This document shows positions 9,362 through 26,923 of a DNA stretch of 29,980 nt, one piece after another. Within the stretch, counting starts at the first letter, position 1, and each line of letters starts with the position of its first letter. The stretch comes from a virus: positions 1 to 29,980 of the IMG/VR virus record IMGVR_UViG_3300025082_000045; one strand, written 5' to 3'. A model generated the notes under the pieces. It did not search any database. It had not been told where the DNA came from and saw only the letters and a list, made by a program, of their open reading frames with translations. A program made the translations under genes and the position numbers.

Positions 9362-9370
9362 CTTTTTTCT

Positions 9371-9378
9371 TAATTTTG
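9371..9378 (+). promoter_or_regulatory. Possible host-type -7 box (TAATTTTG)
   Basis: An exact TAnnTTTG match lies in the 21-base gap before the ATG at 9383. A start site 5-8 bases downstream would yield an almost leaderless message, and no -33 element is evident, so this is weak. Confidence 0.25.
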
Positions 9379-9382
9379 CCGT

Positions 9383-9736
9383 ATGCGTAAACCTATTGCC
9401 GTAAACCAAGAACACAAAATTTTATTAGACAATTATTTATATACAATTTGCGAAAGCATAGCAGATTTATCAAACGAAAGTAGGTATAATGATTTCAAAG
9501 ATGTTTTAAATATTATTATAGATTATCACAACGAATACTCTAGGAAGAAATTAGGTGGCTATTCTGATTTTATGAGTATTATCCCCTTAAATACTACGAG
9601 CTGCTTTAGTGGATTTTTAGCAGGAGTAGAAACAAAACGAAACCGTGCAAAGTGTAGGGCTTACAAAGTTTTACTTATGAACCTTAGCCACGACTTAATA
9701 GAAAAGCTAGAATATATAAAGATTGAAAAAGATTGA
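9383..9736 (+). CDS. Unknown protein (117 aa) preceding the sigma-like gene
   Basis: A helical protein with no Cys cluster: HKILLDNYLYTICESIADLS, a Tyr-rich middle, then FSGFLAGVETKRNRAKCRAY and a final long helix ending EYIKIEKD. It overlaps the sigma-like gene by 14 bases, so the two are co-translated and may cooperate, for example as a regulatory partner. That is only a positional inference. No family is recognised. Confidence 0.6.
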   Translation: MRKPIAVNQEHKILLDNYLYTICESIADLSNESRYNDFKDVLNIIIDYHNEYSRKKLGGYSDFMSIIPLNTTSCFSGFLAGVETKRNRAKCRAYKVLLMNLSHDLIEKLEYIKIEKD

Positions 9737-10265
9737 TAAAATATACAAGCTAATTGCAGACAATAGAAATAGATTTGTTGCTATTGCTTCAAACTATACA
9801 GAAGATAAAAATACAATAGATAATGTAGTTCAAGAGCAGATGTTGTATTTTATGCAAATGAACAAGCAAACATTAATAGATATTTACGAAAAAGATGGAT
9901 TAGAAGGAATAGTTAAGTACGGTGCAGTAGCTATTCATAGGGCTTTAACTAGCAAAACAAGCAAGTATTATTATACATATAGAAAATACTACACAAAGAT
10001 TGTAGATGCTGCAAGCATTACACAAGTTCCTTTCGTAAAGGATGACTTGTATAAAAAGAAACTAATCCATAAAATAGAAAAGGAATTAAATAATATGTAT
10101 TGGTACGACAAGAGAGTTTTTGAAGTTTATTATGAAGATAAGCATACACTTGACAGCTTAGCAGAAAAGACAGGAATAAGCAGGAACTCTTTATTTAGTA
10201 CGATAAAAAAAGTAAGAACAAAACTAAAAGAAATATTAAATAGTGAAGTACTTTGTAAAGAATAA
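9723..10265 (+). CDS. Sigma-70-like RNA polymerase factor
   Basis: The product is 180 aa from a TTG at 9723 overlapping the gene before it. Residues 15-50 (FVAIASNYTEDKNTIDNVVQ then EQMLYFMQM) have the look of sigma region 2.1-2.2. Residues about 134-172 (DKHTLDSLAEKTGISRNSLF then STIKKVRTKLKE) form the region 4 helix-turn-helix. The middle (75-100) is Tyr/Lys-rich. It would bind core RNA polymerase and direct it to phage promoters. The repeated TCTATTATATAA motif upstream of late genes is the obvious candidate target. It is placed at the end of the early region, as expected for a late-gene switch. Confidence 0.7.
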   Translation: MKKIDKIYKLIADNRNRFVAIASNYTEDKNTIDNVVQEQMLYFMQMNKQTLIDIYEKDGLEGIVKYGAVAIHRALTSKTSKYYYTYRKYYTKIVDAASITQVPFVKDDLYKKKLIHKIEKELNNMYWYDKRVFEVYYEDKHTLDSLAEKTGISRNSLFSTIKKVRTKLKEILNSEVLCKE

Positions 10266-10629
10266 AATAAGAAAAGAACGGCTAAAGATTTGTAAGGGTT
10301 GCGAACACTACTTTAAGCTAACAGGAAATTGCAAAAAATGTGGCTGCTTCATGCGTGTAAAAACTTCTTTGTCTTTTTCAGAATGTGCGATAGGACTTTG
10401 GGGAAAGACAGAAGAAATACAAGCACCTAAAGAACTCCCTAAACACCTAGAAAAAGAAGTTCAAGAAATATGGAAATTCATAAAAAACAAACAGATAAAA
10501 GACCACGAAACAAAAGCACGAATGATAGAACTATATAATACAATATACGGAACATCTTATAAAACTACAACCAACTGTAGTAGTTGTTTAGCTTCAATAT
10601 ATAGAGGAATTAATAAATATGTAAAATGA
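10243..10629 (+). CDS. Small Cys-rich protein (DUF6171-like), 128 aa
   Basis: Starts with a GTG inside the end of the sigma-like gene (23-base overlap). The N-terminal half has CKGCEHYFKLTGNCKKCGCF then M-x(13)-C, a zinc-ribbon pattern with 'C-G-C-F-M-x-x-K-T-x...E-C' seen in DUF6171-like proteins of Bacteroidota and their phages. The C-terminal half is helical and contains NCSSCLASIYRGINKYVK, a motif I recall from short phage proteins in this position. Function is unknown; nucleic-acid binding is plausible. Confidence 0.6.
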   Translation: MKYFVKNKIRKERLKICKGCEHYFKLTGNCKKCGCFMRVKTSLSFSECAIGLWGKTEEIQAPKELPKHLEKEVQEIWKFIKNKQIKDHETKARMIELYNTIYGTSYKTTTNCSSCLASIYRGINKYVK

Positions 10630-10811: not shown

Positions 10812-11019
10812 AACAGAAATAGAAATAAATAAATACACTTTAGTATTTAGGAATATGAAGATACAAAACAAAGATGCTTTTTGTTGTAAGCAAGAAATGG
10901 AATGCCTAACAGAAAACGAAGGTATACCAACGATTATAAGAAACGAATATACAAAAGAAGATAGAATTATCCAACACAAAGCGAAACAAAAGGAGAAACG
11001 ATTGAGAGGTAAAAAATAA
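10786..11019 (+). CDS. Small zinc-ribbon-like protein (77 aa)
   Basis: The N-terminus MKYKCKKCKTEIEINKYTLV has a Cys-x2-Cys knuckle and FCCKQEMECL supplies two or three more Cys, consistent with one zinc site. The C-terminal half (EGIPTIIRNEYTKEDRIIQH and a very basic tail, KAKQKEKRLRGKK) is probably extended. Similar small ribbons with a G-x-P-T-I-I-R segment are common in Bacteroidota phages. It is the last gene before the first late-motif site. Confidence 0.6.
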   Translation: MKYKCKKCKTEIEINKYTLVFRNMKIQNKDAFCCKQEMECLTENEGIPTIIRNEYTKEDRIIQHKAKQKEKRLRGKK

Positions 11020-11031
11020 ATATTAAGCAAA

Positions 11032-11043
11032 TCTATTATATAA
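11032..11043 (+). promoter_or_regulatory. Late motif 1 (TCTATTATATAA), putative phage promoter
   Basis: Exact copy of the recurrent 12-mer, 1 base upstream of the ATG at 11045. The A-rich DNA before it also resembles the other copies. If it is a -10 element the transcript would begin at or within the start codon (leaderless). Confidence 0.55.
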
Positions 11044-11044
11044 T

Positions 11045-12208
11045 ATGGAAATCAATAAGTTAAAACCAAACGAAAACAATCCTAGAATAATTAAGAACGA
11101 TAAATTTAAAAAGCTAGTTAAGTCAATAAAGGGCTTCCCTGAAATGCTAGAATTAAGACCTATCGTTATTGATGAAGGCAATGTTATACTAGGTGGCAAT
11201 ATGCGTTATAGGGCTTGTGTAGAAGCAGGGCTAAAAGATGTACCTGTAAAAGTTGCAAAAGGATTAACAGAAGAACAAAAAAAAGAATTTATAGTAAAAG
11301 ATAATGTAGGGTTCGGAGAGTGGGAATGGGATATGTTAGGGAATGAATGGGATAGTGTAGAACTTGCTGAATGGGGTTTAGATGTATGGGAAAACATAGA
11401 TGATAAAGAACCTGAAGCAGGATTAATAGAAGATGATGAAATACCTGAAGTAAAAGAAAGCAAAGTAAAGCGTGGGGATATTTGGCAATTAGGAGAACAT
11501 AGAGTTATGTGTGGGGATGCTACGATAAAAGCCGACACAGAGGCTCTAATGGGCGGAGAAAAGGCTGACATGGTATTTACTGACCCCCCTTGGAATGTTA
11601 ATTATGGTGCAGACGACAAGCATCCATCTTGGAAGCCTAGAACTATTTTAAATGATAAAATGGGTACAGTAGACTTTAAAGAGTTTATGAGTTCTTCATT
11701 TTCAAATATGTCTTTAATCTCAAAAGATGGCTGTCCAACCTATATAGTAATGTCAGCACAGGAATGGGGTAATTTAATGTTAGCATTAAAAGATAATCAG
11801 TATCATTGGAGCTCTACTATTATTTGGAATAAAGACCATCTTGTATTATCAAGGAAAGACTATCATACTAAATATGAGCCAATATGGTATGGATGGAAGG
11901 AGGGTGCTACGAGATTATGTCCGTTAAAAGACAGGAAGCAATCAGATGTATGGGATGTAAAAAGACCTATTCGTTCACCATTACATCCTACTACAAAACC
12001 AATAGACCTAATTGAGATTGCTATAAATAACAGTTCAATCAGGGATAGTATCGTTTTAGATTTATTTTTAGGTAGTGGCTCAACACTAATAGCAGCAGAG
12101 AAACTTAAAAGAAAATGTTACGGAATGGAATTAGATGAAAAGTATTGTGATGTAATAATAGAAAGATGGGAACAATTTACAGGACTTAAAGCAATTAAAA
12201 TAAATTAA
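11045..12208 (+). CDS. ParB-like domain fused to a DNA N-methyltransferase
   Basis: The product is 387 aa. Residues 1-95 form a ParB/Srx-like domain (INKLKPNENNPRIIKNDKF, ending with GGNMRYRACVEAG). Residues about 140-385 are a beta-class N6-adenine/N4-cytosine methyltransferase: RGDIWQLGEHRVMCGDA, catalytic motif IV DPPW (Asp180-Trp183), HPTTKP (314-319), and the AdoMet-binding LDLFLGSGST (about 338-347) followed by GMELDEKYCDV. The order DPPW before FxGxG marks the beta class. It likely modifies phage DNA against restriction before packaging, consistent with its place directly before the terminase genes. The start lies 1 base after late motif 1. Confidence 0.85.
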   Translation: MEINKLKPNENNPRIIKNDKFKKLVKSIKGFPEMLELRPIVIDEGNVILGGNMRYRACVEAGLKDVPVKVAKGLTEEQKKEFIVKDNVGFGEWEWDMLGNEWDSVELAEWGLDVWENIDDKEPEAGLIEDDEIPEVKESKVKRGDIWQLGEHRVMCGDATIKADTEALMGGEKADMVFTDPPWNVNYGADDKHPSWKPRTILNDKMGTVDFKEFMSSSFSNMSLISKDGCPTYIVMSAQEWGNLMLALKDNQYHWSSTIIWNKDHLVLSRKDYHTKYEPIWYGWKEGATRLCPLKDRKQSDVWDVKRPIRSPLHPTTKPIDLIEIAINNSSIRDSIVLDLFLGSGSTLIAAEKLKRKCYGMELDEKYCDVIIERWEQFTGLKAIKIN

Positions 12209-12212
12209 AATA

Positions 12213-12578
12213 ATGGACAAAAGTAGACACATAAAAAAGGAAGTAATTTTAAAAGCGTTGGAAAATAGTTTGGGGGTAGTAACAGTTGCTTGTAAACAAG
12301 CAGATCTTCCAAGAAGTACATACTATAAATGGCTAAAAGAAGATGAAGAGTTTGCTAAGTCAGTAAAAGATATTGAAAACATTGCACTAGATTTTGCAGA
12401 AAGCAAACTACATAACCAAATAGAAAATGGTAATACTTCAGCAACTATTTTCTTCTTAAAGTGCAGAGGTAAAAAAAGAGGATATATTGAAAAGTCAGAA
12501 CTAGATATTACAAGTGGTGACGAACCTATTACTATTGAATTTAATATAGATGCGAGTAATACCGACACTAACGAATAA
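12213..12578 (+). CDS. terS: Terminase small subunit-like protein
   Basis: The product is 121 aa. An N-terminal helix-turn-helix (VVTVACKQADLPRSTYYKWL) is followed by the helical segment EEFAKSVKDIENIALDFAES and KLHNQIENGNTSATIFFLKC, the layout of DNA-recognition and oligomerisation parts of phage TerS proteins. The acidic C-terminal 30 residues could contact the large subunit. It is 4 bases after the methyltransferase and overlaps the large terminase gene by 29 bases. Packaging signals (pac or cos) are not evident from sequence alone. Confidence 0.75.
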   Translation: MDKSRHIKKEVILKALENSLGVVTVACKQADLPRSTYYKWLKEDEEFAKSVKDIENIALDFAESKLHNQIENGNTSATIFFLKCRGKKRGYIEKSELDITSGDEPITIEFNIDASNTDTNE

Positions 12579-13857
12579 ACAAGCACTTGCCTTTACATAC
12601 CTTAAAGACAATGAAACTACTGAGATACTTTTTGGCGGTGGTGCAGGAGGTGGCAAGTCGTGGTTCTTATGTGCTGCTTTAGTATCAAGTTGCTTAAAGC
12701 ATAAAGGAATAAGGGCTTTACTTGGAAGAAGCCAATTATCAGTTTTAAAAAGTACAACCCTTAATACTTTATTTGAAGTTTGCCAACAATGGAATTTAAC
12801 AACCCCTAAACATTATAAATACAATGGTCACACAAATGTTATATCTTTTTGGAATGGTAGTGAAATCTATCTTAAAGACCTTTATCAATATCCTTCTGAC
12901 AGGAATTTTGACAGTTTGGGTTCTATGGAACTCACTATTGCAGCTATTGACGAGTGTAACCAAATTACTGAGAAAGCAAAGCAAATAGTATCAAGTAGGT
13001 TAAGATACAAACTTGATGAATACAATCTCATCCCGAAATTGCTATTGACTTGCAACCCTTCAAAGAATTGGACATACACAGATTTTTATAGACCTTATAA
13101 AAACAAAGAACTCCCTAAACACAGAAAGTTTATTCAGGCATTAGTAGATGATAACGAAAACATTTCTAAACACTACAAAGAACAATTAGGCAAGTTAGAC
13201 AAGTTAAGCAAAGAACGATTACTATTTGGGAATTGGGAGTATGACGCAACAGACGACAATTTAATTGACTACAATGCTATTGTAAGTTTATTTGAAAACA
13301 AAGGGGTGGAAGGCGAAAAGTACATCAGTTGTGATGTCGCAAGATTTGGTTCAGACAAAACAGTTATAATGTATTGGGAAGGTCTACAAATTAAAACTAT
13401 CAGAACGATACTTAAATCATCAATAGATAATGTCGTAGATGAAGTGAGGACTATACAACAAAAATATCAAGTGCCTTTAAGAAATGTAGTAATAGATGAA
13501 GATGGTGTAGGTGGAGGTGCAAAAGATTATTTAAGATGTCAAGGGTTTGTAAATAATGCTAGACCTTTGCGAAAAGAAAACTACCAGAACTTAAAGACAC
13601 AATGCTTCTATACATTAGCAAAGAAAATAAACGAAGGACAAATAGGAATAGATTGTCCTGACATAAATATTAAGGAATATATAATAGAAGAACTTGAACA
13701 GATTAGAATAAAGAACCAAGACAAAGATACTAAGCTACAAATCGTAGCTAAAGACACAATCAAAGCTTTAATAGGACGGTCACCTGATTATGCAGACGCT
13801 TTAGCTATGCGAATGTACTACGAAATAAAACCTTCAGGAAAGTATTTTGTACAATAA
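12550..13857 (+). CDS. terL: Terminase large subunit (packaging ATPase/nuclease)
   Basis: The product is 435 aa. The ATPase has Walker A GGGAGGGKS (29-37) and Walker B LTIAAIDECNQ (Asp134, Glu135). The RNase H-like nuclease has its acidic residues in YISCDVARFGSDK (Asp262), VVIDEDGVGGG (Asp316/Asp318) and SPDYADALAM (Asp413/Asp416). It cuts concatemers and drives DNA through the portal. The length is normal for Bacteroidota siphophages. The cutting mode is not readable, although the wrap-around contig fits a circularly permuted, headful-packaged genome (inference). The portal gene is on the far side of the tail and head modules. Confidence 0.9.
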   Translation: MRVIPTLTNKQALAFTYLKDNETTEILFGGGAGGGKSWFLCAALVSSCLKHKGIRALLGRSQLSVLKSTTLNTLFEVCQQWNLTTPKHYKYNGHTNVISFWNGSEIYLKDLYQYPSDRNFDSLGSMELTIAAIDECNQITEKAKQIVSSRLRYKLDEYNLIPKLLLTCNPSKNWTYTDFYRPYKNKELPKHRKFIQALVDDNENISKHYKEQLGKLDKLSKERLLFGNWEYDATDDNLIDYNAIVSLFENKGVEGEKYISCDVARFGSDKTVIMYWEGLQIKTIRTILKSSIDNVVDEVRTIQQKYQVPLRNVVIDEDGVGGGAKDYLRCQGFVNNARPLRKENYQNLKTQCFYTLAKKINEGQIGIDCPDINIKEYIIEELEQIRIKNQDKDTKLQIVAKDTIKALIGRSPDYADALAMRMYYEIKPSGKYFVQ

Positions 13858-13967
13858 AGAAAAAGCCGTGCCTAGCGACACGACTAATTCTAACACCAAA
13901 ACAAGTAAGAAAAATCAAGGCAAATATACTATTTTAAACTAAATAAACAAATTTTCTATATATAAGT
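13858..13967 (+). other. Intergenic region with weak hairpin and late motif 2
   Basis: These 110 bases contain no ORF. A hairpin at 13865-13884 (GCCGTG / CACGAC) has one mismatch on the + strand and no T-run; read on the - strand it pairs fully with one G-U pair and is followed by TTTTTCTTT, so it resembles a terminator for antisense transcripts. The late motif is at the 3' end. Confidence 0.4.
13955..13966 (+). promoter_or_regulatory. Late motif 2 (TCTATATATAAG variant)
   Basis: Variant of the recurrent motif with one T missing, 1 base upstream of the ATG at 13968. The upstream AAATAAACAA is shared with the copy before 23229. Confidence 0.45.
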
Positions 13968-14612
13968 ATGAAAGCAAAAATAACTAAGGGTGGTAAGACA
14001 AAGAAGTATAACATAATTGATAATTGGGATGATGTTACACTTGAAAAGTGGCAGCAATTAGCTTTAGGTAAAAAGTTATCAAAAGCAAAGTCAAAGGAAG
14101 CAAAAGATACAATAGCTTTACTTTCAGACATACCTAAAAAACTAATAGACCAAATGTCTTTAAAAGATGTGGCAACGATATTTGAAAAATTATCTGACCT
14201 ACAAGTAAAAGGAAAGCTAATAAAGGTCTTTAAAATAGACGGTGAAGAGTATGGATTTTTACCTGATTGTGATGAAATAAGTTTAGGGGAATGGGTAGAC
14301 ATAGAAGCTTATTTGAAAGACGGATTAGAAAAGAATATACATAAGATAATGGCAGTTCTATTTAGAAAAGTTACAAGCAAAGAAGGTAAGGTATATTCTA
14401 TTGAAGCATATTCAGGGGGAAGGGAACGAGCAGAAAAATTTAAAAATAAAATGAACGCTGCACAAGTTCAGCAAAGCTTAGTTTTTTTTTGGAATTTCGG
14501 CAGCGAACTATTAATAATTTTGAAGCTTTATTTGGCGAAACTGATGAAGAAGATACAGGAGGAAACGAACTCGTTAGCAAATGGGGATGGTTCGGAGTTC
14601 TCTACCGCTTGA
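13968..14612 (+). CDS. Tail assembly chaperone, short (zero-frame) product
   Basis: The product is 214 aa and is the gpG-like part. The N-terminal domain (about 1-130) includes LEKWQQLALGKKL, LSDIPKKLIDQMSLKD and EYGFLPDCDEISLGEWVDIE, a pattern typical of Bacteroidota phage proteins that guard the tape-measure protein during tail assembly. At codons 172-175 the gene crosses G-T9-GG (14481-14492), a -1 slippery run. Zero-frame reading continues for about 40 codons as FFWNFGSELLIILKLYLAKL and a charged tail. The overlapping downstream frame supplies the T-like extension. Late motif 2 directly precedes it. Confidence 0.65.
   Translation: MKAKITKGGKTKKYNIIDNWDDVTLEKWQQLALGKKLSKAKSKEAKDTIALLSDIPKKLIDQMSLKDVATIFEKLSDLQVKGKLIKVFKIDGEEYGFLPDCDEISLGEWVDIEAYLKDGLEKNIHKIMAVLFRKVTSKEGKVYSIEAYSGGRERAEKFKNKMNAAQVQQSLVFFWNFGSELLIILKLYLAKLMKKIQEETNSLANGDGSEFSTA
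14481..14492 (+). other. Probable -1 programmed frameshift site
   Basis: G TTT TTT TTT GG: in the zero frame the codons are gtt ttt ttt tgg, and slipping back one base on T-TTT-TTT keeps both tRNAs paired and enters the frame of 14489-14746. This is the expected place for the G/GT frameshift of siphophage tail chaperones. A homopolymer miscall in the assembly would look the same. Confidence 0.6.
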
Positions 14613-14746
14613 CAGGGGGAGAGTTCTCAAAGCTTGAATTAATAACGGAACGTTCTTTATTAGAAGCTTTAACTTGGTTGTCTTATGAATTAGATTTAAA
14701 CGAAACACAAAAAGTAAAATATGAGCATAGACGCAATACGGTATAA
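14489..14746 (+). CDS. Tail assembly chaperone, T-like extension made by -1 frameshift
   Basis: This frame runs 85 codons beyond the slippery T-run and has no good start of its own (a TTG inside the run). It encodes INNFEALFGETDEEDTGGNE, KWGWFGVLYRLTGGEF and LLEALTWLSYELDLNETQKV. The 'K-W-G-W-x...L-x-x-G-x-x...E-A-L-x-x-L-x-x' pattern is what I expect of the T domain of Bacteroidota phage chaperones, so it is coding. The fusion would be about 259 aa. It overlaps the next gene by 26 bases. Confidence 0.6.
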   Translation: MEFRQRTINNFEALFGETDEEDTGGNELVSKWGWFGVLYRLTGGEFSKLELITERSLLEALTWLSYELDLNETQKVKYEHRRNTV

Positions 14747-15230
14747 AACACTAAACAATGTAATAGACACGCTGAAATGTGTAGGTGAAGATCATAAACA
14801 AATTAAAACAGTTACAACAGGAGATTTGTTCGACATAGATCTGAATAAGAACACACTTTTTCCACTACTGCATATAAATTTAATAAATGTAAATGCAGGT
14901 AAAGGGCAGTTGCAATATAACTTTCAATTAGTTGTAGCTGATTTAGTAGAACCAAACGAAGCAGAAAACGAACAAGAAGTATTGAGTGATACACTTTCTA
15001 TTGCTTTAGATATAGTTGCAATATTTAAAAATGGTGAAAAGCTTTATTTACATAATAGGGTTCACGGTGAAGAAGCGAGATATTGGACTACTGACGACTT
15101 TACATTAGAACCTTTTACAGAACGATTTGACAACGCAATTTCAGGATTTACTTTAACACTACCTATTGTAATAGAATGGGTATACGATACTTGTAACATT
15201 CCAATAACAACCGATATATGTGTAAAATAA
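14721..15230 (+). CDS. Tail completion/terminator-like protein
   Basis: The product is 169 aa, mixed alpha/beta: an N-terminal helix (IRYKTLNNVIDTLKCVGEDH), then TLFPLLHINLINVNAGKGQL and QYNFQLVVADLVEPNE, a helix EVLSDTLSIALDIVAIFKNG, and a final strand region with EPFTERFDNAISGFTLTLPI. The 'YPLLH-like ... F-Q-L-V-V-A-D ... P-F-T-E-R-F-D-N' pattern is common to a protein encoded near the tail chaperone in Bacteroidota phages, possibly a tail terminator or head-tail joining protein. Exact role is uncertain. Confidence 0.45.
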   Translation: MSIDAIRYKTLNNVIDTLKCVGEDHKQIKTVTTGDLFDIDLNKNTLFPLLHINLINVNAGKGQLQYNFQLVVADLVEPNEAENEQEVLSDTLSIALDIVAIFKNGEKLYLHNRVHGEEARYWTTDDFTLEPFTERFDNAISGFTLTLPIVIEWVYDTCNIPITTDICVK

Positions 15231-15290
15231 AAATAGGAAGATTTATAATTCAATTAATACCACCAAAAATAATATATAAAATAAAATAAA

Positions 15291-15740
15291 ATGGCAGATT
15301 TATCAGTAACAATTTCCGAGAGCGTAACCTTAAATGGAAGCGTAAGAGGAACAACAAACACCTTAACAATATCAAGTATCATAGACACTTTTGAAAGGGT
15401 AGTAACTTGCCCTGCTTTACAAACAACTACCATAGCAACATTCGCTACAAATGTTTACGATAGCGTAGGGGCTATTGATGCACAGGGAGCAAAGTATGTA
15501 AGGGTAACTAATTTATCAAGTGAATACGATATGGAACTAGCAGTAGTAGGTGCAGCAACCTTATATCAAGTACATATACAAGCAGGACATTCTCATATTC
15601 TTTGCAGAACAGATGATGCTATGTTAGCAGAAGCAGATACTAGCCCTTCGTTTGGTACAATGGCAGACATAGCAAGTATACAAGCAAGACCAACAGCAGG
15701 TTCTGATATAAGTGTAGAAATATTTGTAGCTAGTATCTAG
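15291..15740 (+). CDS. Beta-rich virion protein, unknown
   Basis: The product is 149 aa, almost entirely beta: LSVTISESVTLNGSVRGTTN, KYVRVTNLSSEYDMELAVVG and YQVHIQAGHSHILCRTDDAM. Proteins of this kind, opening 'L-x-V-T-I-x-E-S-V-T-L-N-G', occur in tail modules of Bacteroidota phages and are presumed virion components. The start has an A/T-rich leader of 60 bases but no late motif. It abuts the next gene (1-base overlap). Confidence 0.5.
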   Translation: MADLSVTISESVTLNGSVRGTTNTLTISSIIDTFERVVTCPALQTTTIATFATNVYDSVGAIDAQGAKYVRVTNLSSEYDMELAVVGAATLYQVHIQAGHSHILCRTDDAMLAEADTSPSFGTMADIASIQARPTAGSDISVEIFVASI

Positions 15741-16285
15741 TGGCAACACTAAAAACAAATAATGTAGAAAAGTATTTAAGAAGTTTTGCGAAAGCAGTAA
15801 TAAAAAGGGGTAAAAAAATCTTAAATGCAAAGGGCAAGAGTGGAAAGCTAAGTGATAGTTTAAAGTACCGATTAGAAGCAACTAACAAAGGGTACAACTT
15901 AGTTTTTAAAGGTGCTGATTATGCTGCCTTTGTAGATAAGGGAGTTTCAGGAACTAAGACAACAAGAACTTATCACAATGTATTCGGCAAAAGAGAAAGA
16001 AGCCCTTTTAAATATAAAGCTGGTCTTGGTAATTCTCCAAACATAGGGGCTTTAATGAAATGGATAAGCAGAAAAGGAATTAAAGGAAGGGATAAAGAAA
16101 CAGGAAGGTTTATTAAAACAAAAAGTTTAGCTATGTTATTTTCCAAGTCAATACAAAGAGAGGGTCTTGCTTCAACCTCTTTCTTTTCAAAAGCTATGAG
16201 TATAGAACTTGCTACATTTGATATTGATTTACTTGAAAATTTTAAAGCAGATATATTAACACATTTTGAAACACTAGAAGTATGA
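15740..16285 (+). CDS. HK97 gp10-like tail completion protein
   Basis: The product is 181 aa. The start is a GTG at 15740 overlapping the upstream TAG. It begins basic and helical (KYLRSFAKAVIKRGKKILNA), then has beta segments with LVFKGADYAAFVDKGVSGTK, the signature of HK97-gp10-like head-tail joining proteins. SPFKYKAGLGNSPNIGALMK and WISRKGIKGRD are also typical. It connects capsid and tail or acts in tail completion. It is followed by the tail-tip genes through a 4-base overlap. Confidence 0.6.
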   Translation: MATLKTNNVEKYLRSFAKAVIKRGKKILNAKGKSGKLSDSLKYRLEATNKGYNLVFKGADYAAFVDKGVSGTKTTRTYHNVFGKRERSPFKYKAGLGNSPNIGALMKWISRKGIKGRDKETGRFIKTKSLAMLFSKSIQREGLASTSFFSKAMSIELATFDIDLLENFKADILTHFETLEV

Positions 16286-17781
16286 TAATAACACAATCAC
16301 CATTATACAAAATGGTAGCGTCAAATGAAGAGATAATTTTTGTAGTAGAAGATAGACCATTAGTTGCAGGGTCATTTTTAAACCCCCATTATAAGGTTAA
16401 GTTTATTGCTGAAATATATTTAACAACAGAGGGTAATGCTTCTAGTACATTATCTTCTGATAAAATAGCAACATTAAAGGCATCACCAAATAATGCAGGG
16501 GTAGGTATATTTGACTTTTCACGAATATTAGAAGCTTATGTAAGTCCTGAATACTTGGGGGGGCATACCTTAGATTGGAACGGAACGCCTAGATACACAA
16601 AGAAAGACGGGGCAATTTATACAGACAGCCAACCTCATTCCATACATCAAATAGATGAATTTTCTTTAGTTAGAAATAGTGTAAAGAATTTTGCTATAAG
16701 ATTTTCTATTGAATTTGCGACATCACAAACAGGTACTGTATCAACAGTAGCAGGTCTAACTTCTTCCGATTATTACATACATAATGCAGTAAGGCAAGAA
16801 GATGATGTTTTGGACATTATGGATACCACAGGATATTTTGGATATAATTATGATAGGCACGATTACGTATTAAATGCAGCTTCTTCTAAATTTCTAACAA
16901 ATTCACCAACAACCCAATATATCGGAAGTGCTGATTATCATACACTTGCCTTTTTTCAAGAAGGTCAAAATATCGGAGTAGGTAGTTTATATGGTAAGCA
17001 AGTTAGTTCAGCATTAGCTAGTCAAAACAGTCCAAGTTCCGTACAAATTAAGTTTTATTATAATGGCAGTATCGTAGGTACACCAATCGACTTAATTAAT
17101 CAACCCTCATCAGGGGGTATATCGTTTGCTAGTAGTATTGAAGCATATAGAAAAATGTGTTATGTAGGTGTAGGAACAGCAAACTTGACAGGTGTAGGAA
17201 ATACAATACCTACAAATTGGGATTATTATACGGTAATTGCTTATGATGATGCGGGGGCAACAATTTCAGATACTTATTATTTTTACAACCAATGTGATGG
17301 CAGGGGGTTTGAAAAGTTTAGGGTAACTTGGCTAAACAGATTGGGAACTTGGGATTACTTTAACTTCACAAAAAAGAATGTAAGAAAAATAAACTCTAAA
17401 AGGGAAACATATCAACAGATTAAAGGTACTTGGAATGAATTGACTTATAAAAAGTACGGCTATCAAGGTGGACAAAAAACATTCTCAACGAACTCAAAAG
17501 AAGTAATTACATTACAATCGGACTTTGTAACAGAAGAAGCGTCAGCTTGGTTAGAAGAACTATTCACAAGCCCTGATGTTTTTGTATTACAAGAATATTC
17601 TAATTGGACAGGGCAAGGTACTGCGTCAGGCGTGGTATGGTTTGATGCAATAAATAAATTCGTTCAGCCCTGCGTAATAAAATCTTCAAGCTATACAAAA
17701 AAAACTACGGCAAATGATAAGCTAAAACAATATACTTTAGAAATAGAAATGTCTCATAATAAACGAATACAAAGGTCTTAA
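16282..17781 (+). CDS. Large tail-tip / distal tail structural protein
   Basis: The product is 499 aa. It is beta-rich throughout, with FRVTWLNRLGTWDYFNFTKK in the C-terminal third and a final region ending EIEMSHNKRI. In Bacteroidota siphophages a protein of this size and composition next to the Tal-like gene is the likely distal tail or tail-tip component. The middle (about 150-330) is Asn/Ser/Gly-rich and may be a receptor-facing insertion. No enzyme motif is seen. Translation is coupled by overlap with the previous gene (ATGA), and the next gene starts at the stop. Confidence 0.5.
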   Translation: MIITQSPLYKMVASNEEIIFVVEDRPLVAGSFLNPHYKVKFIAEIYLTTEGNASSTLSSDKIATLKASPNNAGVGIFDFSRILEAYVSPEYLGGHTLDWNGTPRYTKKDGAIYTDSQPHSIHQIDEFSLVRNSVKNFAIRFSIEFATSQTGTVSTVAGLTSSDYYIHNAVRQEDDVLDIMDTTGYFGYNYDRHDYVLNAASSKFLTNSPTTQYIGSADYHTLAFFQEGQNIGVGSLYGKQVSSALASQNSPSSVQIKFYYNGSIVGTPIDLINQPSSGGISFASSIEAYRKMCYVGVGTANLTGVGNTIPTNWDYYTVIAYDDAGATISDTYYFYNQCDGRGFEKFRVTWLNRLGTWDYFNFTKKNVRKINSKRETYQQIKGTWNELTYKKYGYQGGQKTFSTNSKEVITLQSDFVTEEASAWLEELFTSPDVFVLQEYSNWTGQGTASGVVWFDAINKFVQPCVIKSSSYTKKTTANDKLKQYTLEIEMSHNKRIQRS

Positions 17782-20631: not shown

Positions 20632-21458
20632 TGGAATATAAAAAAGGACACAAAATAAAACCAAAAGAAACTTCACCAACTGGGAGGGTAATTTTTACAG
20701 ACGGAACTAATGATGTTTCACCTAATCAAATAAGTTGTGAAGCTTACGGGTATAAATGGAATAGGGTAAATAATACTTGTTCAGCTTTTCCTTCAAGTTT
20801 TAAAATAAGTAAATTATTTAAAAACACAACCAATACTAATATCGGAAATAACAAAGTAGAAGGTTCAACAGAAAATACTTTTATAAGTGGACAAAAAAAC
20901 ACAACAAAAGGGAACAATAGAAACATTATAATAAGTGGCGAAAACCACCAAGTAGAAAATAATATAAAAAATGCTTCAGTTTTAGGGGGTACTTATGGAA
21001 AGGTAATAAGACAATCTGAAGTAGTTATTGGTGGTGGTGAAGCTTTAGGTCGCAATCAAACTTCTATTGTACAATTTGCAGGAAGTACAACAAATAATAC
21101 TGCAACTGATTTAACAATACAAGGCGATACAAGTTCTTATTTAGCAGTACAAAATAACTCTATATTAGGGTTTGAGGTTAAAGTAATAGGGCTTTGTAGT
21201 GGTGGTTCAAGTGGTACAGCAGGAGATTATAAATATATAGAAATAAAGGGGGCGGTGCAAGTAGATAACGGTTATAACTTAACTTGGTCGCAAAGTTCAA
21301 CTACAATAGCAAGTGTAGGTACAACAGGAACGGCACAAATGGCAGCAGTAACAGACCCCAATATTACAGTAGAAGTAACAGGCACATCAAATGTAAACAT
21401 TCAATGGTTTGCAAGTGTTCAACTAACAGAAAAGAAATTAAGCACTGATACATTTTAA
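20631..21458 (+). CDS. Tail fibre-like protein with Asn-rich beta repeats
   Basis: The product is 275 aa. After a charged N-terminus, residues 65-150 show short recurring units (NNKVEGSTENTFISGQKN, NNRNIIISGENHQVENN, NASVLGGTYGKVI), each with N-N/G-x and I-x-S/G-G turns. This pattern resembles left-handed beta-roll or YadA-like trimeric fibre stalks. The C-terminal 120 residues are a Thr/Ser-rich beta domain. A receptor-binding fibre is the most likely role, and it lies between the tail hub and tape-measure genes. No chaperone or enzyme domain is seen. Confidence 0.55.
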   Translation: MEYKKGHKIKPKETSPTGRVIFTDGTNDVSPNQISCEAYGYKWNRVNNTCSAFPSSFKISKLFKNTTNTNIGNNKVEGSTENTFISGQKNTTKGNNRNIIISGENHQVENNIKNASVLGGTYGKVIRQSEVVIGGGEALGRNQTSIVQFAGSTTNNTATDLTIQGDTSSYLAVQNNSILGFEVKVIGLCSGGSSGTAGDYKYIEIKGAVQVDNGYNLTWSQSSTTIASVGTTGTAQMAAVTDPNITVEVTGTSNVNIQWFASVQLTEKKLSTDTF

Positions 21459-21461
21459 GAT

Positions 21462-23183
21462 ATGGCAGATAAAGAATTAGATTTTAATATAAAATCAAAT
21501 ATAAAGGGTGTAGCAAAAGACGCTGAAAAGTTAGGCGATAGCTTAGAAACAGCAGGAAAGCAAACTGAAAAAATATCTAAAACCGCAGGTAAAGGTGCTA
21601 AAGGTTTTGGATTATTAAGAGGTGCAGTAAATAAAGTCGGAACTGCACTAAAAGGGTTAGGGATTATAGCAGTTCTAGCAGCAGCATTCAATGCACTTAA
21701 AGAAGCGTTAGGAAGAAACCAAAAAGTAATGAATACTGTTAATACAGTAATGACTGCTGTATCAACGACCTTTAACCAAGTAATAGACGTGCTTGTAGAT
21801 GTGTACGGTTGGGTAACAAAATCATCTGATAGATTTGATGGACTAACTAAGGTTATAAGTGGGTTAATGACCATAGCACTAACACCTTTAAAAATGTCTT
21901 TTTATGCTATTAAGTTAGCAGTTCAAGGTGCTATGTTGGCTTGGGAAGATAGTTTCTTAGGTGGGGGTGATGAAAAGAAGATGGCAGAGTTAAGGGAAGA
22001 TATAAAAGCTACGAAAGAAGATATTTTAGATGTAGGATTAGCAGCTATTGATGCAGGGAAAGATGTATACAATAATACAAGAGACGCTATTGGTGAAATA
22101 GCAGCTATTGGTGAACAAGCCGTTAAAGGTATATCTGAAATAAGTATTAAAGCCAATATTGAACAAGCAAAGGCAACTACTGCTGCACAAAATAATTCAA
22201 AACTAGCAGAAGCAGGTATTCAGGGGCTTATTGAAAAATATGACAGACAAGCAGAGTTACAAAGACAAATTAGAGATGACGAAACTAAAACCTTTGCAGA
22301 AAGAATAGCAGCCAATACGAAGTTAGGCGAAATATTAGACGAACAAGAAGCTGAAATGTTAAAGTTAGCAGATACTAGAGTTGCTTCTGCTGCTTTAGAG
22401 TTGTCTGCAAATAAAGAAAATATAGAGTTACAAGTTGCTTATCAACAAGCTTTAAATGATAGGGCAGGAGTGGAAGCACAAGTGGCAGGATTTAGAAGCG
22501 AACAATTAACTAACGAAGTAGCTTTAGAAAAAGAATTAGGGGAAGTAAAAAATGAACTTCTTTTAGAGGGGCTTGATGGTATAGCACGAGAGTTAGCCGA
22601 ACTTGAACAAGCTTACGAGTTAAAAGTAAAAATGGCAAAAAAAGCAGGAATTGATACTGCTGCTATTACGGCTCAATATGAAAGACAAAAAGCTGATATT
22701 GTAAAAAGCAATCAAGAAGATATTGTTAAATGGTCTGAAATGAGTTCTGAACAACAGCTAGGTATGGCTTCACAAACAGCAGGTAATATGGCTAAGATAC
22801 TTGGTGAAGAAACGGAAGCAGGTAAAGCTATGGCAATAGTACAAGCTACGATAGATACTTATAAGTCAGCACAAGCAGCTTACGCTTCTATGGCAGGAAT
22901 ACTTTATGTAGGTCCTGTGTTGGGAGCTATTGCAGCAGCAGCAGCAGTTGCAGCAGGATTGAAAAATATAGCAGCAATTAAAAGTGCAAGTTCTTCAGGT
23001 CCGAGTGGAGGTGGTGGTGCTCCTTCTTCTGCACCAAGTATGCCTAGTACAACAGTGGCTAGTGGGGCTTTTACATTAGGTGAAGGTGTAGAACCTGAAC
23101 CTGCACGTGCTTATGTAGTTTCTGACGATATAACAAACAATCAAAACAAATTAGCCAACATAAGACGAAGGGCTACTATCTAA
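21462..23183 (+). CDS. Tape measure protein
   Basis: The product is 573 aa. N-terminal helical region (SNIKGVAKDAEKLGDSLETA) leads to a hydrophobic stretch (GLGIIAVLAAAFNAL), a second one around residues 125-165, a long Ala/Glu/Gln-rich coiled-coil (about 170-450), and a C-terminal hydrophobic Ala-rich segment (GILYVGPVLGAIAAAAAVAA). That order is typical of tape-measure proteins that fix siphophage tail length and enter the host membrane. At roughly 0.15 nm per residue the tail would be about 85 nm, an estimate from family knowledge. It precedes the capsid genes instead of following the tail tube gene. Confidence 0.75.
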   Translation: MADKELDFNIKSNIKGVAKDAEKLGDSLETAGKQTEKISKTAGKGAKGFGLLRGAVNKVGTALKGLGIIAVLAAAFNALKEALGRNQKVMNTVNTVMTAVSTTFNQVIDVLVDVYGWVTKSSDRFDGLTKVISGLMTIALTPLKMSFYAIKLAVQGAMLAWEDSFLGGGDEKKMAELREDIKATKEDILDVGLAAIDAGKDVYNNTRDAIGEIAAIGEQAVKGISEISIKANIEQAKATTAAQNNSKLAEAGIQGLIEKYDRQAELQRQIRDDETKTFAERIAANTKLGEILDEQEAEMLKLADTRVASAALELSANKENIELQVAYQQALNDRAGVEAQVAGFRSEQLTNEVALEKELGEVKNELLLEGLDGIARELAELEQAYELKVKMAKKAGIDTAAITAQYERQKADIVKSNQEDIVKWSEMSSEQQLGMASQTAGNMAKILGEETEAGKAMAIVQATIDTYKSAQAAYASMAGILYVGPVLGAIAAAAAVAAGLKNIAAIKSASSSGPSGGGGAPSSAPSMPSTTVASGAFTLGEGVEPEPARAYVVSDDITNNQNKLANIRRRATI

Positions 23184-23205
23184 AATCAAATAAACAATAA
23201 AAATA

Positions 23206-23217
23206 TCTATTATATAA
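23206..23217 (+). promoter_or_regulatory. Late motif 3 (TCTATTATATAA)
   Basis: Exact copy, 11 bases before the ATG at 23229. The preceding ATCTAAAATCAAATAAA is nearly the same as that before motif 4. Confidence 0.55.
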
Positions 23218-23228
23218 AAAAGAAAACA

Positions 23229-23609
23229 ATGTACAAAGAATACTTACAAAAATTAGAAAACCTTAAAGGTACTGAACTAAAATCTAAAAGAATTGAATTG
23301 GGAATAGTAGATGATTTAAAAAAGTTAAATACTAAAAGTGAAACTACAATAAAAAATTCTAAAAAAGTTGTTGAGAAAATAGATAAGTCAAGAAAAACGT
23401 ACAACGATTTATACGAAAAAACAAAGACACTAACGACAGAAGTAGAAGCACAAATAAAAAGAAATTTAAGTAAAATAAAAGAAGCAGGACAATCAGCTAA
23501 ACAATTAGGCGTTAAAGTTACTGATATTAAAGAAGTTGCTAAATTAGAAGAAGTAAATACAAAACTTAAAAGACAAATAAACGATTTAAAATACCCGTCT
23601 ATAAGGTAA
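23229..23609 (+). CDS. Coiled-coil protein, capsid-region (126 aa)
   Basis: The product is Lys-rich and almost wholly coiled coil: IELGIVDDLKKLN, then a long heptad-like helix (SKKVVEKIDKSRKTYNDLYE), then AKQLGVKVTDIKEVAKLEEV. The same arrangement (ELG-x2-D-L...AK-x-LGV-x-[IV]-TDI) recurs at the C-terminus of the protease-like protein downstream, so the two share a module. It may be a head-assembly or scaffolding factor. Late motif 3 precedes it, so it may be highly expressed. No other family is recognised. Confidence 0.6.
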   Translation: MYKEYLQKLENLKGTELKSKRIELGIVDDLKKLNTKSETTIKNSKKVVEKIDKSRKTYNDLYEKTKTLTTEVEAQIKRNLSKIKEAGQSAKQLGVKVTDIKEVAKLEEVNTKLKRQINDLKYPSIR

Positions 23610-23625
23610 TTACTAAAAATCAATT

Positions 23626-24591
23626 ATGAAAAAGAAAAAAACAAGAATTGTAGAATTAGTTATTTCAGACGATAGTCAAGAACTCACGATAGACGCAATA
23701 TCGCTTGTGTCCTCTCCTGCGATTGAAGAAACTTTTGTATTTTTTGGAAAAGAAAAGAACAATCTAACTTTCGCAAAGATAGACGAAGAAAAAAGAATGC
23801 TCATCAGTCCTGCACTTATACCAAACAAACAAATCTTTAGATACGACCCGCAGACAGATAGCGACTACTATGTGTACTTTTCGAAAGAAACAGTAGCACA
23901 AGCAGCAGCTTTATATTTAAAACACAATAACCACCATAAAGCAACCTACGAACACCAAGACAGAGTTTCAGGAGTATTAACTGTTGAAAGTTGGATAAAA
24001 GAAGGCGAACAAGATAAGTCAAATCTTTACGGCTTTAAAGGATTGCCTTTGGGAACGTGGTTCGTGAAAATGTCCGTTCAAAATGACGAAATTTGGAGTA
24101 AGATTAAGGATGGAACTTTGAAAGGGCTTTCAATAGAAGGTTACTTTATAGACAGAATGGAAACTATGAGTAAAGCAATAACAGACGAACAAATAAGAAC
24201 TGCATACAAAGAACTACAAGCAGAAGGTAAGGTTAAGGTTGAGTTGGGGGCTAAAGATTTAACAACTTTATTAAAAAAAGCCAATCAAGCAAAAAAAGAT
24301 GTAATAAAATATATGAAAGACGCTAAAGAAACAGAAAGCAGTTTTAATAGCTTACAAAAAAAACTCAAGCAATTAGAGGGAAAGAAAGATGATTTAAAAG
24401 ATAAAAACGCTGATATTTATGAAAATAATTTAAAAGAGTTTAATGCATTAGAAAAGGCAGCAAAAGAATTAGGTGTAGATATTACAGATATACCTGCTTA
24501 TAAAGATTATGGAAAAACAGTAGATATTATATTTCAAAACAGAAAAGATATAGATGCGGCTTGGGCTGACATATATAAGTTTAAACCTTAA
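23626..24591 (+). CDS. XkdF-like putative capsid protease with C-terminal coiled coil
   Basis: The product is 321 aa. Residues about 7-180 match the XkdF-type domain: IVELVISDDSQELTIDAISL, the SPAIEETFVFF strand, AKIDEEKRMLISPALIPNKQ, YYVYFSKETV, THREE-part TYEHQDRVSGVLTVESWI (His110, Ser115 region), and DGTLKGLSIEGYFIDRM. XkdF-like domains are proposed serine proteases for prohead maturation. The catalytic residues cannot be confirmed by eye. Residues 204-321 form a separate Lys/Glu coiled-coil module related to the 126-aa protein upstream. The protein is placed between that gene and the scaffold-like gene, where a capsid protease is expected. Confidence 0.65.
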   Translation: MKKKKTRIVELVISDDSQELTIDAISLVSSPAIEETFVFFGKEKNNLTFAKIDEEKRMLISPALIPNKQIFRYDPQTDSDYYVYFSKETVAQAAALYLKHNNHHKATYEHQDRVSGVLTVESWIKEGEQDKSNLYGFKGLPLGTWFVKMSVQNDEIWSKIKDGTLKGLSIEGYFIDRMETMSKAITDEQIRTAYKELQAEGKVKVELGAKDLTTLLKKANQAKKDVIKYMKDAKETESSFNSLQKKLKQLEGKKDDLKDKNADIYENNLKEFNALEKAAKELGVDITDIPAYKDYGKTVDIIFQNRKDIDAAWADIYKFKP

Positions 24592-24624
24592 AATAATCTA
24601 AAAATCAAATAAATAAATAAATAT

Positions 24625-24636
24625 TCTATTATATAA
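24625..24636 (+). promoter_or_regulatory. Late motif 4 (TCTATTATATAA)
   Basis: Exact copy, 20 bases before the ATG at 24657. It shares upstream ATCTAAAAATCAAATAAA with motif 3. Confidence 0.55.
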
Positions 24637-24656
24637 CAGAACCTAAAAAAGAACTT

Positions 24657-25307
24657 ATGAATTTAAAGAAACAAATCTTAACAGCACTTGGACTTGATAA
24701 CGAAGTGCAATTAGAATTCCAAGCCAAGCTAACTGACGGAACTATTATCGTTTCTGAAGCAGAAGCTTTAGCTGAAGGAATTGCTATTTCAGTACTTGCA
24801 GAAGACGGAAGTCAAATGCCTTTGCCTGTTGGTGAATATGAAACAGAAGATGGTCAAGGATTTTCTGTTAAAGAAGAAGGGATTGTAGCGGAACTTTATG
24901 AAAGTGAAACTGATGAAGAAGAAGTGGAAGAAGAAGAAACTGAAGAAGTTGAAGCTACTGAAGAAGAAAGACAACCTAAAAAAATCAAAGAAACTAAAGA
25001 AATTGAATTTGATAAGGTAGCTTTTATTGACGAAGTAAAAGCAGTTGTTGATGAATTAGTTGCTAAGACAACTTCTGACATTGAAGAGTTAAAATCAGAA
25101 ATAAACGAATTGAAAGAAGCAAACGGAAATTTAGAAACAGAAAAAGAAGAACTATCCTCACAAATAGAAAAGCTTTCTAAAGAACCTGCTGACAAACCTG
25201 TAAAAACTTCTAAATTTAATGAACCTAAAAAGGAAACATTATCTAAAGATGAATACAGAAACCTTTCAAGGAAAGAAAAATATTGGTATAATATAAAAAA
25301 TAATTAA
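24657..25307 (+). CDS. Scaffold-like acidic coiled-coil head protein
   Basis: The product is 216 aa. The N-terminal half is a beta domain (FQAKLTDGTIIVSEAEALA, PLPVGEYETEDGQGFSVKEE) common on Bacteroidota phage head proteins. It is followed by a very acidic run (residues about 83-104, mainly Glu), a long coiled coil (DIEELKSEINELKEANGNLE) and a C-terminal charged tail ending YRNLSRKEKYWYNIKNN. Acidic coiled-coil proteins just before the major capsid gene are typical scaffolding proteins. The role is inferred from composition and position. Late motif 4 directly precedes it. Confidence 0.6.
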   Translation: MNLKKQILTALGLDNEVQLEFQAKLTDGTIIVSEAEALAEGIAISVLAEDGSQMPLPVGEYETEDGQGFSVKEEGIVAELYESETDEEEVEEEETEEVEATEEERQPKKIKETKEIEFDKVAFIDEVKAVVDELVAKTTSDIEELKSEINELKEANGNLETEKEELSSQIEKLSKEPADKPVKTSKFNEPKKETLSKDEYRNLSRKEKYWYNIKNN

Positions 25308-25325
25308 TAATAAAAATTTAAGAAA

Positions 25326-26192
25326 ATGGGTTTAACAATCACATCGAGTACGTATGCTGGAAGTCAGGCGGGGGCGTATCTTCATGCGGCCTTAAAAGGT
25401 GCAGACAGTTTAGAGTACTCAACGGTAAGAGATGCCGTGAACTATAAAGAAGTTCTAAACACTCTCACAAATTCAAACTTAGTTAAAGACGCAACTTGTG
25501 ACTTTAGCGAAGAAAGTTCTACACTCACAATGACCGAGAATGTTTTAGAAGTAGAACAGTATCAGGTAAATCAAGATATATGCCGAAAAACGCTTTTAAG
25601 CGATTGGTCGTTCGCACAAGAAGATGATTTCGTTGCTTTTGTTACATCTTATGTTGCTTCAGTTATAGCAGATAGTATTGAAGGTTCATTTTGGGCAGGT
25701 ACAACAGCTACTTCAGGACAGTTTAACGGTATCACTACTTCTTATTCAGGTAGTATGACAGCTTCTACTGCTTCTGCTGCTTATTCTGCTGCTAACATTG
25801 TAGCAAATTTAGGTACTTTAGCTGCTGACATTCCAACATCAGTTTATGGCAAGGATGACCTTTATATCTACATGAACAAAAAGACGTACAGATTTTACAT
25901 TAACGCAATTTCTGCTTTAAGTGCTTTTCCTTTTAACCATATGGGGCAATACACTCCAGAATTTGAAGGAATAAAAATCGCTGTTGTAAGTGGTCTCGCA
26001 GACAATATTATGTATGCAGGACAAAAATCTAACTTATATTTCGGAACTTCAACTGCTTTAGATATGGATTATAATAAAGTGCAAGTTTTGGACATGTCCG
26101 AACTCGACGGCAGTCAAAATATCCGTTTTGTAGCCCTGTGGACGGCAGGAGTTAATGTAGGTGTAGATGCAGATTTTACTTATCAATCGTAA
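25326..26192 (+). CDS. Major capsid protein
   Basis: The product is 288 aa. Opens MGLTITSSTYAGSQAGAYLH and AALKGADSLEYSTVRDAVNY, a start I recall from Bacteroidota phage capsid proteins, followed by TLTMTENVLEVEQYQVNQDI and a mixed alpha/beta core (YKYIY-like YGKDDLYIYMNKKTYRFYIN, DNIMYAGQKSNLYFGTSTAL), compatible with the HK97 fold. The length is short but normal for this group. It lies right after the protease and scaffold-like genes, and the next gene is the tail tube. The 18-base leader is A-rich with no Shine-Dalgarno. Confidence 0.75.
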   Translation: MGLTITSSTYAGSQAGAYLHAALKGADSLEYSTVRDAVNYKEVLNTLTNSNLVKDATCDFSEESSTLTMTENVLEVEQYQVNQDICRKTLLSDWSFAQEDDFVAFVTSYVASVIADSIEGSFWAGTTATSGQFNGITTSYSGSMTASTASAAYSAANIVANLGTLAADIPTSVYGKDDLYIYMNKKTYRFYINAISALSAFPFNHMGQYTPEFEGIKIAVVSGLADNIMYAGQKSNLYFGTSTALDMDYNKVQVLDMSELDGSQNIRFVALWTAGVNVGVDADFTYQS

Positions 26193-26216
26193 TATTAACT
26201 TTAAAAACTAAATAAA

Positions 26217-26813
26217 ATGGCGTGTGAATTAACCAAGGGTAGAGGATTAGGGGGCTGCCTTACGACTACGGGTGGAATTAAAGCCGTTTATTTTGCTCAA
26301 TACGAAGATATTGATTGGGATGCTACTACTATTGCTTCTAGCGAATTGACAGACCTAGAATTTGCTGGGGGTTCAGGGGGTAGTGATGATGAACTCTTTA
26401 AATATCATTTAAAAAGGGGTGCTGGTTCGCTAAATGAGACAGTTTCAGCGAGTACTGAAAATGGGACTGTTTTCTATACTCCTTCTGTTACGATTAAACT
26501 TCACAAATTGTCGAAGGAAGATCAGAATGAATTGAAGCTTTTAGCACAAAATACTTTACTTATTTTTGTAGAAACAAATGCGCTAAATTCAGCAGGTAAA
26601 AATGTAATTTTTGCTTTAGGAACTGACAATGGTTGTACTATTAGTGGTGGCACAAATGCAGCAGGTAGTGCTTTAGGAGATTTCAACGGCTACGAATGGA
26701 CATTCGAAGCCAATCAAACATACCCTATGGTAACTGTCGCAGATTACACTACTTCACCATTCGATAATACAGCGTTTAATGGAAGTGTTGCAATAACTAT
26801 TACAGAAAGTTAG
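26217..26813 (+). CDS. Major tail tube protein (probable)
   Basis: The product is 198 aa, beta-rich with YHLKRGAGSLNETVSASTEN then GTVFYTPSVTIKLHKLSKED, a KLLAQNTLLIFVETNALN strand, and ALGDFNGYEWTFEANQTYPM. The 'R-G-x-G-S-x-x-E-T-V...E-N-G-T-x-F-Y-x...L-x-L-x-K-L' pattern is typical of tail tube subunits in Bacteroidota phages. It follows the capsid gene and is closed by two strong terminators, suggesting one highly expressed late unit. A head decoration role is a less likely alternative. Confidence 0.55.
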   Translation: MACELTKGRGLGGCLTTTGGIKAVYFAQYEDIDWDATTIASSELTDLEFAGGSGGSDDELFKYHLKRGAGSLNETVSASTENGTVFYTPSVTIKLHKLSKEDQNELKLLAQNTLLIFVETNALNSAGKNVIFALGTDNGCTISGGTNAAGSALGDFNGYEWTFEANQTYPMVTVADYTTSPFDNTAFNGSVAITITES

Positions 26814-26829
26814 AGTTAAATAAACTACT

Positions 26830-26852
26830 CAAAGTTCTTCGGACTTTGTTTT
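26830..26852 (+). terminator. Rho-independent terminator 1 (UUCG loop)
   Basis: CAAAGT(26830-26835) pairs with ACTTTG (26843-26848); a C-UUCG-G tetraloop with one bulged T closes it, followed by TTTT. It lies 16 bases after the tail-tube stop. Confidence 0.7.
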
Positions 26853-26863
26853 CATAATTCTTG

Positions 26864-26886
26864 AAGGGGGGGAAACCCCCCTTTTT
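26864..26886 (+). terminator. Rho-independent terminator 2 (GC-rich, GAAA loop)
   Basis: AAGGGGGG pairs with CCCCCCTT around a GAAA tetraloop, followed by a short T-run. It is an exceptionally strong hairpin in this AT-rich genome and the second of a tandem pair. Confidence 0.85.
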
Positions 26887-26911
26887 GATTTACAAATATT
26901 TCTAAGGTTTT

Positions 26912-26923
26912 TCTATTATATAG
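26912..26923 (+). promoter_or_regulatory. Late motif 5 (TCTATTATATAG)
   Basis: Differs from the consensus only at the last base. It lies between the tandem terminators and the ATG at 26928 (4 bases away), where a restart promoter is expected. Confidence 0.55.

Follow-up and report, generated by a model that had tools for sequence, protein, structure and literature searches.

The 29,980-base virus record IMGVR_UViG_3300025082_000045 of IMG/VR (hereafter the window, the whole stretch of DNA that was analysed), almost all of whose genes lie on the + strand, carries five copies of a short motif, TCTATTATATA or a close variant of it, shortly ahead of genes downstream of a putative sigma factor gene (9723). 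We consider it very likely that these five sites are late promoters read by host RNA polymerase carrying the phage-encoded, extracytoplasmic function (ECF)-like sigma factor of gene 9723. Observed in the genomes are a bipartite motif and its spacing, its placement by strand and gene, a predicted sigma fold, and a joint variation of a sigma loop and the -10-like element. The first-pass annotation had proposed phage-specific late promoters at these places, and this proposal gains support from the strand and position bias of the motif, the fixed spacing of its two boxes, and its location downstream of the sigma gene, as well as from promoter variants that, by comparison of genomes, appear to change along with the sigma factor.

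All five copies listed in that annotation were recovered in place by sequence search. The exact 12-mer, formed by TCTATTATATA and the base after it, occurs three times in the window (11032, 23206, and 24625), always on the + strand; the copy at 26912 differs only in the last base, and the copy at 13955 reads TCTATATATAA. The nearest ATG follows the end of the 11-mer at a distance of 2 bases (11032 and 13955), 5 bases (26912), 12 bases (23206), or 21 bases (24625). Such repetition had been judged very unlikely by chance, a statement that stands for the exact copies and their placement, to which we limit it because the number of looser matches (up to two mismatches) in the AT-rich window is not above chance (19 observed vs 14.8 expected); loose 12-mer matching in the window alone was set aside as uninformative. 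A position matrix trained on 46 sites of relatives, with the window and its nearest kin left out, returned exactly the five sites as its top five matches on either strand (scores in Table 1), the next sense match scoring -1.9 bits and the best antisense match -0.4 bits. The maximum among 40 random Markov sequences was 10.5 bits; site 13955 falls below this value, and the case for it is therefore made by its orthologous position and by an upstream box that is intact. An A-rich box stands 18 bases before the motif at all five sites, weakest at 26912 (AAATATT). The A-rich upstream DNA remarked earlier at several of the sites is thus real and extends to every one of them, as a -35-like box at constant spacing, which makes the promoter motif bipartite. 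The 26912 site also comes right after a strong terminator-like hairpin (Table 1), which counts in favour of the promoter reading.

The same arrangement recurs in about 80 related (marine phage) viral contigs, collected by scans with the sigma-like protein and the terminase. Among these contigs, TCTATTATATA has 77 unique copies on the gene strand vs 3 on the opposite strand, and reversed or shuffled versions of the motif yielded 0-5 copies. An ATG begins exactly 2 bases past the 11-mer at 60 of the 77 unique sense copies, and TCTATTATA, found without prior knowledge, was the top 9-mer in upstream regions (44 observed vs 0.25 expected). Relative to the sigma gene, 51 motif copies lie downstream vs 1 upstream, which places the class before packaging and structural genes and not before early genes. 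The two-box pattern was found in at least 120 stretches in viral contigs, compared with 1 for the same box joined to a shuffled core; the single-box pattern TCTATTATATANTATGA did not provide clean evidence at collection scale, its shuffled control reaching 82 stretches vs at least 120.

Aligning the sites brought out the second element, (T/C)AA(A/C)T(A/G)AA, which starts 18-20 bases before the motif in a 247-site logo. As that logo includes loci retrieved by the motif itself, the unbiased counts are those of the 77 copies and of a set of 54 non-redundant sites from loci retrieved by protein similarity only. In the 54-site set, the ATG lies exactly 2 bases past the 11-mer in two thirds of the sites (36/54), and the box is at -18 in 29 of these 36. 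The 18 sites without ATG at that position have the box at -18 in 13 cases, with a box-to-ATG distance that scatters from -55 to -32, and 17 of them carry a purine at +13. Judged by these alignments, the fixed unit is box, motif, and putative purine start, rather than motif and start codon.

The product of gene 9723 had been described as sigma-70-like; its assignment as a sigma factor agrees with fold and family matches, but the protein is ECF-like instead of a full sigma-70. Its AlphaFold2 model (mean predicted local distance difference test score 78) comprises two helical domains, with helices in residues 3-91 and then 108-175, separated by a loose linker of low confidence, an arrangement with sigma2 and sigma4 only and neither sigma1.1 nor sigma3, as in ECF factors. 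Region 4 superposes on region 4 of E. coli sigmaE bound to -35 DNA (2h27; Z 10.5, 2.2 Å, 71 residues), and the best-ranked whole-chain structural matches are ECF sigmas, at about 8-16% identity over the structural alignments. Across the family, phrog_1740 ("RNA polymerase sigma factor") is matched by 23 of 50 members, and Pfam searches at E 0.01 detected Sigma70_r4 in 23/50 and Sigma70_r2 in 4/50; a member of the family sits upstream of the terminase across relatives. A tblastn search of the 9723 sigma against cultured phage records gave no match at E 0.01. In the window, the gene of a small Cys-rich protein (10243-10629; weak DUF6171 match) overlaps the sigma gene at its end, and in dozens of relatives it comes after that gene; the protein is a candidate partner or anti-sigma of this factor.

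The promoters vary together with the sigma factor. In relative L102, three unrelated promoters (before the methyltransferase, after the terminase, and in the structural region) all read TACATTATATA in the same register, and TCTATTATATA is absent from that genome; conversely, neither strand of 823 kb from the main group contains TACATTATATA. The sigma loop of L102 and L104 is TCKNN, compared with TSxRS in most others. In another branch, L137 and L143 combine the loop TC(R/K)NN with the -10 element TACTTTAA, which begins with TAC, and with an unchanged -35 box, so that in genomes with a TC(K/R)NN sigma the -10 element starts with TAC at every detected promoter. As we read the structural model, the loop would lie approximately where, in ECF sigmas, the specificity loop recognizes the flipped -10 base (PMC6411747). 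Sigma clades at a greater distance (about 21-30% identity) carry other pairs, ACGTTATATA and GTACATATAG, before the orthologous gene, in the same register and beside the ATG. Several unlinked sites changing together is as expected from a change in a trans-acting reader. A partial Mantel test (-10 distance vs sigma region 2 distance given terminase distance; r 0.28, p 0.008) was not used, because it included two promoters, those of L091 and L137, in the wrong register. Upstream of the 13968 orthologue in L016, L026, L033, L051, and L058, a conserved run, CACCTTTTTTTTTATACTAAAAT, stands ahead of the ACGTTATATA element and is perhaps the terminator tail of the preceding unit. In L013, L015, and L056, whose sigma is much diverged, a third promoter type, GGAGTACAGT ... 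GTACATATAGTATG, precedes the orthologous gene.

Several observations weigh against the assignment of the five sites to the phage sigma factor. Foldseek E-values for the 9723 model are weak (best 0.0047), the two-domain superposition is poor, with a tight fit for region 4 only, and in Pfam and PHROGs the window protein itself yields matches that are generic or below threshold (Sigma70_r4 scores 16.1 bits, below the cut-off of 24.1). The joint variation could partly reflect ancestry, because sigma and promoters are both vertically inherited; on both trees the TAC change appears to have arisen twice, but each tree also allows a single origin. Moreover, the window sigma has T79 where relatives have R, yet its promoters retain TCTATTATATA (TCT).

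The position of the start codons bears on the messages produced. Because the ATG is only two bases past the 11-mer, initiation would have to fall at or before it. If transcription began 6-8 bases after TCTATT, a distance that agrees with the 6-9 bases reported for phage sigma promoters (PMC8948821), the first base would be the A of the ATG or one next to it. The ATG beside the motif is very probably the true start rather than an artefact, since orthologues of the 13968 product with different predicted leaders (0 to 11 nucleotides, nt) share a common N-terminus (MKVKIKK...). Leaderless or near-leaderless messages, with a 5' end within about 5 nt of the start codon, are predicted for three of the five window sites and for at least 36 of the 54 family sites. 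Near-leaderless messages had been suggested before, and the comparative evidence favours that prediction for three sites (0, 0, and about 3 nt), with leaders of about 10 and 19 nt at the other two. Before gene 9383, at 9360-9385, the sequence TAATTTTG-CCGT-ATG places a host-type -7 element only 4 bases ahead of the ATG, and for this reason the early message of that gene may be near-leaderless too.

For binding, start site, leaderless translation, and timing, we infer the following course. Host polymerase with a host sigma would make the early messages, including that of the phage sigma, from host-type promoters; sense TAHHTTTG, the host-type -7 element, is denser before the sigma gene (130 in 153 kb) than after it (159 in 396 kb), which fits host-driven early genes. 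The phage sigma would then turn on the two-box promoters of the methyltransferase, packaging/post-terminase, and structural genes, its region 4 binding the box (T/C)AA(A/C)T(A/G)AA at about -32 to -24 and its region 2, via the specificity loop, binding and melting TCTATTATATA at about -13 to -3. The first transcribed base would be a purine, 13 bases on from the initial T of the motif; at most family sites this purine is the A of the ATG, giving a leaderless mRNA, and elsewhere the leader would be a few to about 20 nt long. Many messages would start at AUG and be translated leaderless, others with short leaders. On balance we favour, with less assurance than the promoter assignment itself, the broader proposition that in a large family of marine Bacteroidota phages the packaging and structural programme is expressed from leaderless mRNAs, the position of the phage sigma's -10 box making transcription begin at the start codon itself, in hosts that mostly give leaders to their own mRNAs, and that sigma loop and promoter set changed together several times, leaving a natural series of matched sigma-promoter pairs.

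It seems improbable that the promoters are real but read by an alternative (ECF) sigma of the host rather than by the phage sigma. Bacteroidota hosts possess many ECF sigmas, and two boxes at rigid spacing resemble ECF promoters; however, when the phage sigma loop differs, the -10 element differs with it at every promoter of that phage genome, almost every motif copy is found downstream of the gene for the phage sigma, and two cultured phages related by terminase, 11b and phi10:1 (40 kb of it read), have neither the sigma nor the motif. We give even less credence to a translation or RNA-processing signal just ahead of the start codons. Two thirds of the copies do stand at one fixed ATG distance, and start codons of Bacteroidota have A-rich contexts in place of Shine-Dalgarno sequences (PMC6847099), but the remaining third departs from that distance while mostly retaining the box at -18 and the purine at +13, the box often overlaps the stop of the preceding gene, and processing would have no use for a second box at a constant distance. 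The constancy of box-motif spacing despite varying ATG distance therefore points to a promoter.

An operator for a phage repressor or activator acting on ordinary host promoters carries the same slight weight as a translation or processing signal. Repeated intergenic motifs can be operators, and the genome encodes further small proteins without assigned function; against this, the host-type TAnnTTTG (-7 of the sigmaABfr promoter) is absent at all five window sites, the two boxes are asymmetric and occur in a single orientation, and the register to the ATG leaves no space for a separate downstream core promoter. Matches to E. coli-type sigma-70 promoters were no more than at shuffle level. Chance repetition in AT-rich DNA is the least credible explanation of all: loose matches with two mismatches are indeed at chance level in the window, but the strand bias and the controls speak against it, and the conservation in relatives is incompatible with it.

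Table 1. Coordinates of the putative late promoters (P1-P5), the sigma factor gene, and associated features in the window
Feature	Position	Strand	Remarks
ECF-like sigma factor gene	9723..10265	+	180 amino acids; sigma2, linker, sigma4
Presumed specificity loop of 9723 product			T76-S77-K78-T79-S80-K81, between predicted helices 48-76 and 81-91
P1 -35-like box AAATAAAT	11014..11021	+	18 bases upstream of motif, as in relatives
P1 -10-like element TCTATTATATA	11032..11042	+	29.3 bits; same position before relatives' methyltransferase orthologues
P1 predicted start	11045		A of ATG, ParB-like/DNA methyltransferase gene; leader 0 nt (predicted leaderless)
P2 -35-like box AACTAAAT (inside TAAACTAAAT)	13937..13944	+	
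P2 -10-like element TCTATATATAA	13955..13965	+	5.2 bits; orthologous site has the element in nearly all relatives
P2 predicted start	13968		A of ATG, first gene past terminase; leader 0 nt (predicted leaderless)
P3 -35-like box AAATAAAC	23188..23195	+	matrix
P3 -10-like element TCTATTATATA	23206..23216	+	32.7 bits
P3 predicted start	~23219		predicted leader ~10 nt to ATG 23229
P4 -35-like box AAATAAAT	24607..24614	+	matrix
P4 -10-like element TCTATTATATA	24625..24635	+	34.2 bits; orthologous site in L078 at 12745
P4 predicted start	~24638		predicted leader ~19 nt to ATG 24657
Intrinsic-terminator-like hairpin (GGGGGGG-AAA-CCCCCC, T-rich tail)	26863..26888	+	strong; directly upstream of P5
P5 -35-like box AAATATT	26894..26900	+	weak
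P5 -10-like element TCTATTATATA	26912..26922	+	14.7 bits
P5 predicted start	~26925		predicted leader ~3 nt to ATG 26928

In principle the scheme is a familiar one, that of phage late sigmas, and it is in its details that this variant is unusual. Its nearest known counterpart, likened by scheme and promoter layout, is phage 7-11, whose late sigma SaPh711_gp47 was shown in vitro to use bipartite promoters of the form GTAAtg-(16)-aCTA (PMC8948821). Like the gp47-type late promoters, the sites described here combine two conserved boxes, always the same distance apart, ahead of late genes, and the two phages would have in common a phage-encoded sigma, bipartite promoters before late genes, and a host sigma for early genes. 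Phage 7-11 differs in its Salmonella host and in the sequences of both boxes, and the term "leaderless" is absent from PMC8948821. The phiEco32 sigma gp36 (promoter tAATGTAtA; PMC8948821, PMC4331800), named ECF in PMC7881722, is likewise a phage sigma and directs middle and late genes; it is less alike in having a single-element promoter and no region 4 homology, whereas the window system has a -35 box and a predicted region 4 fold. E. coli sigmaE and M. tuberculosis sigmaH and sigmaL (PMC6411747) resemble the 9723 product in their sigma2-linker-sigma4 build, specificity loop, and rigid promoter spacing, but are cellular regulators with only the low identity given above. The host housekeeping sigmaABfr promoter (-33 TTTG / -7 TAnnTTTG; PMC6847099) would be served by the same core polymerase, and the early region of the phages is richer in sense TAHHTTTG, but the phage motif has neither TTTG.

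Of the transcripts predicted for Flavobacterium johnsoniae, 87% carry a leader of more than 10 nt (PMC6847099). A possible leaderless late regulon would therefore be out of the ordinary in hosts of this kind, whose phylum is considered to have few leaderless mRNAs. Our search of the open-access literature, the coverage of which is incomplete, found no description of promoters in register with start codons or of a series of matched sigma-promoter pairs in Bacteroidota phages. For a widespread, almost uncultured group of marine phages, the programme of late transcription can in this way be predicted from sequence at base level, including start site and leader length, and the evolved pairs (TSxRS/TCT, TC(K/R)NN/TAC, and the more distant ones) may help to work out how ECF-like sigmas read the -10 element.

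The terminase of the window is closest, among cultured phages, to those of Flavobacterium phage 11b (52%) and Cellulophaga phage phi10:1 (49%), for which reason the host is probably a marine Bacteroidota bacterium. No motif or clear sigma homologue occurred in prophage relatives (25 bacterial loci), and the host is accordingly placed only to Bacteroidota, from the terminase relatives. The contig end (28836-29980) repeats the contig start (1-1145, portal gene) over 1.1 kb at about 85% identity; the record therefore seems to wrap round a genome of about 28.8 kb, its two ends coming from different strain variants.

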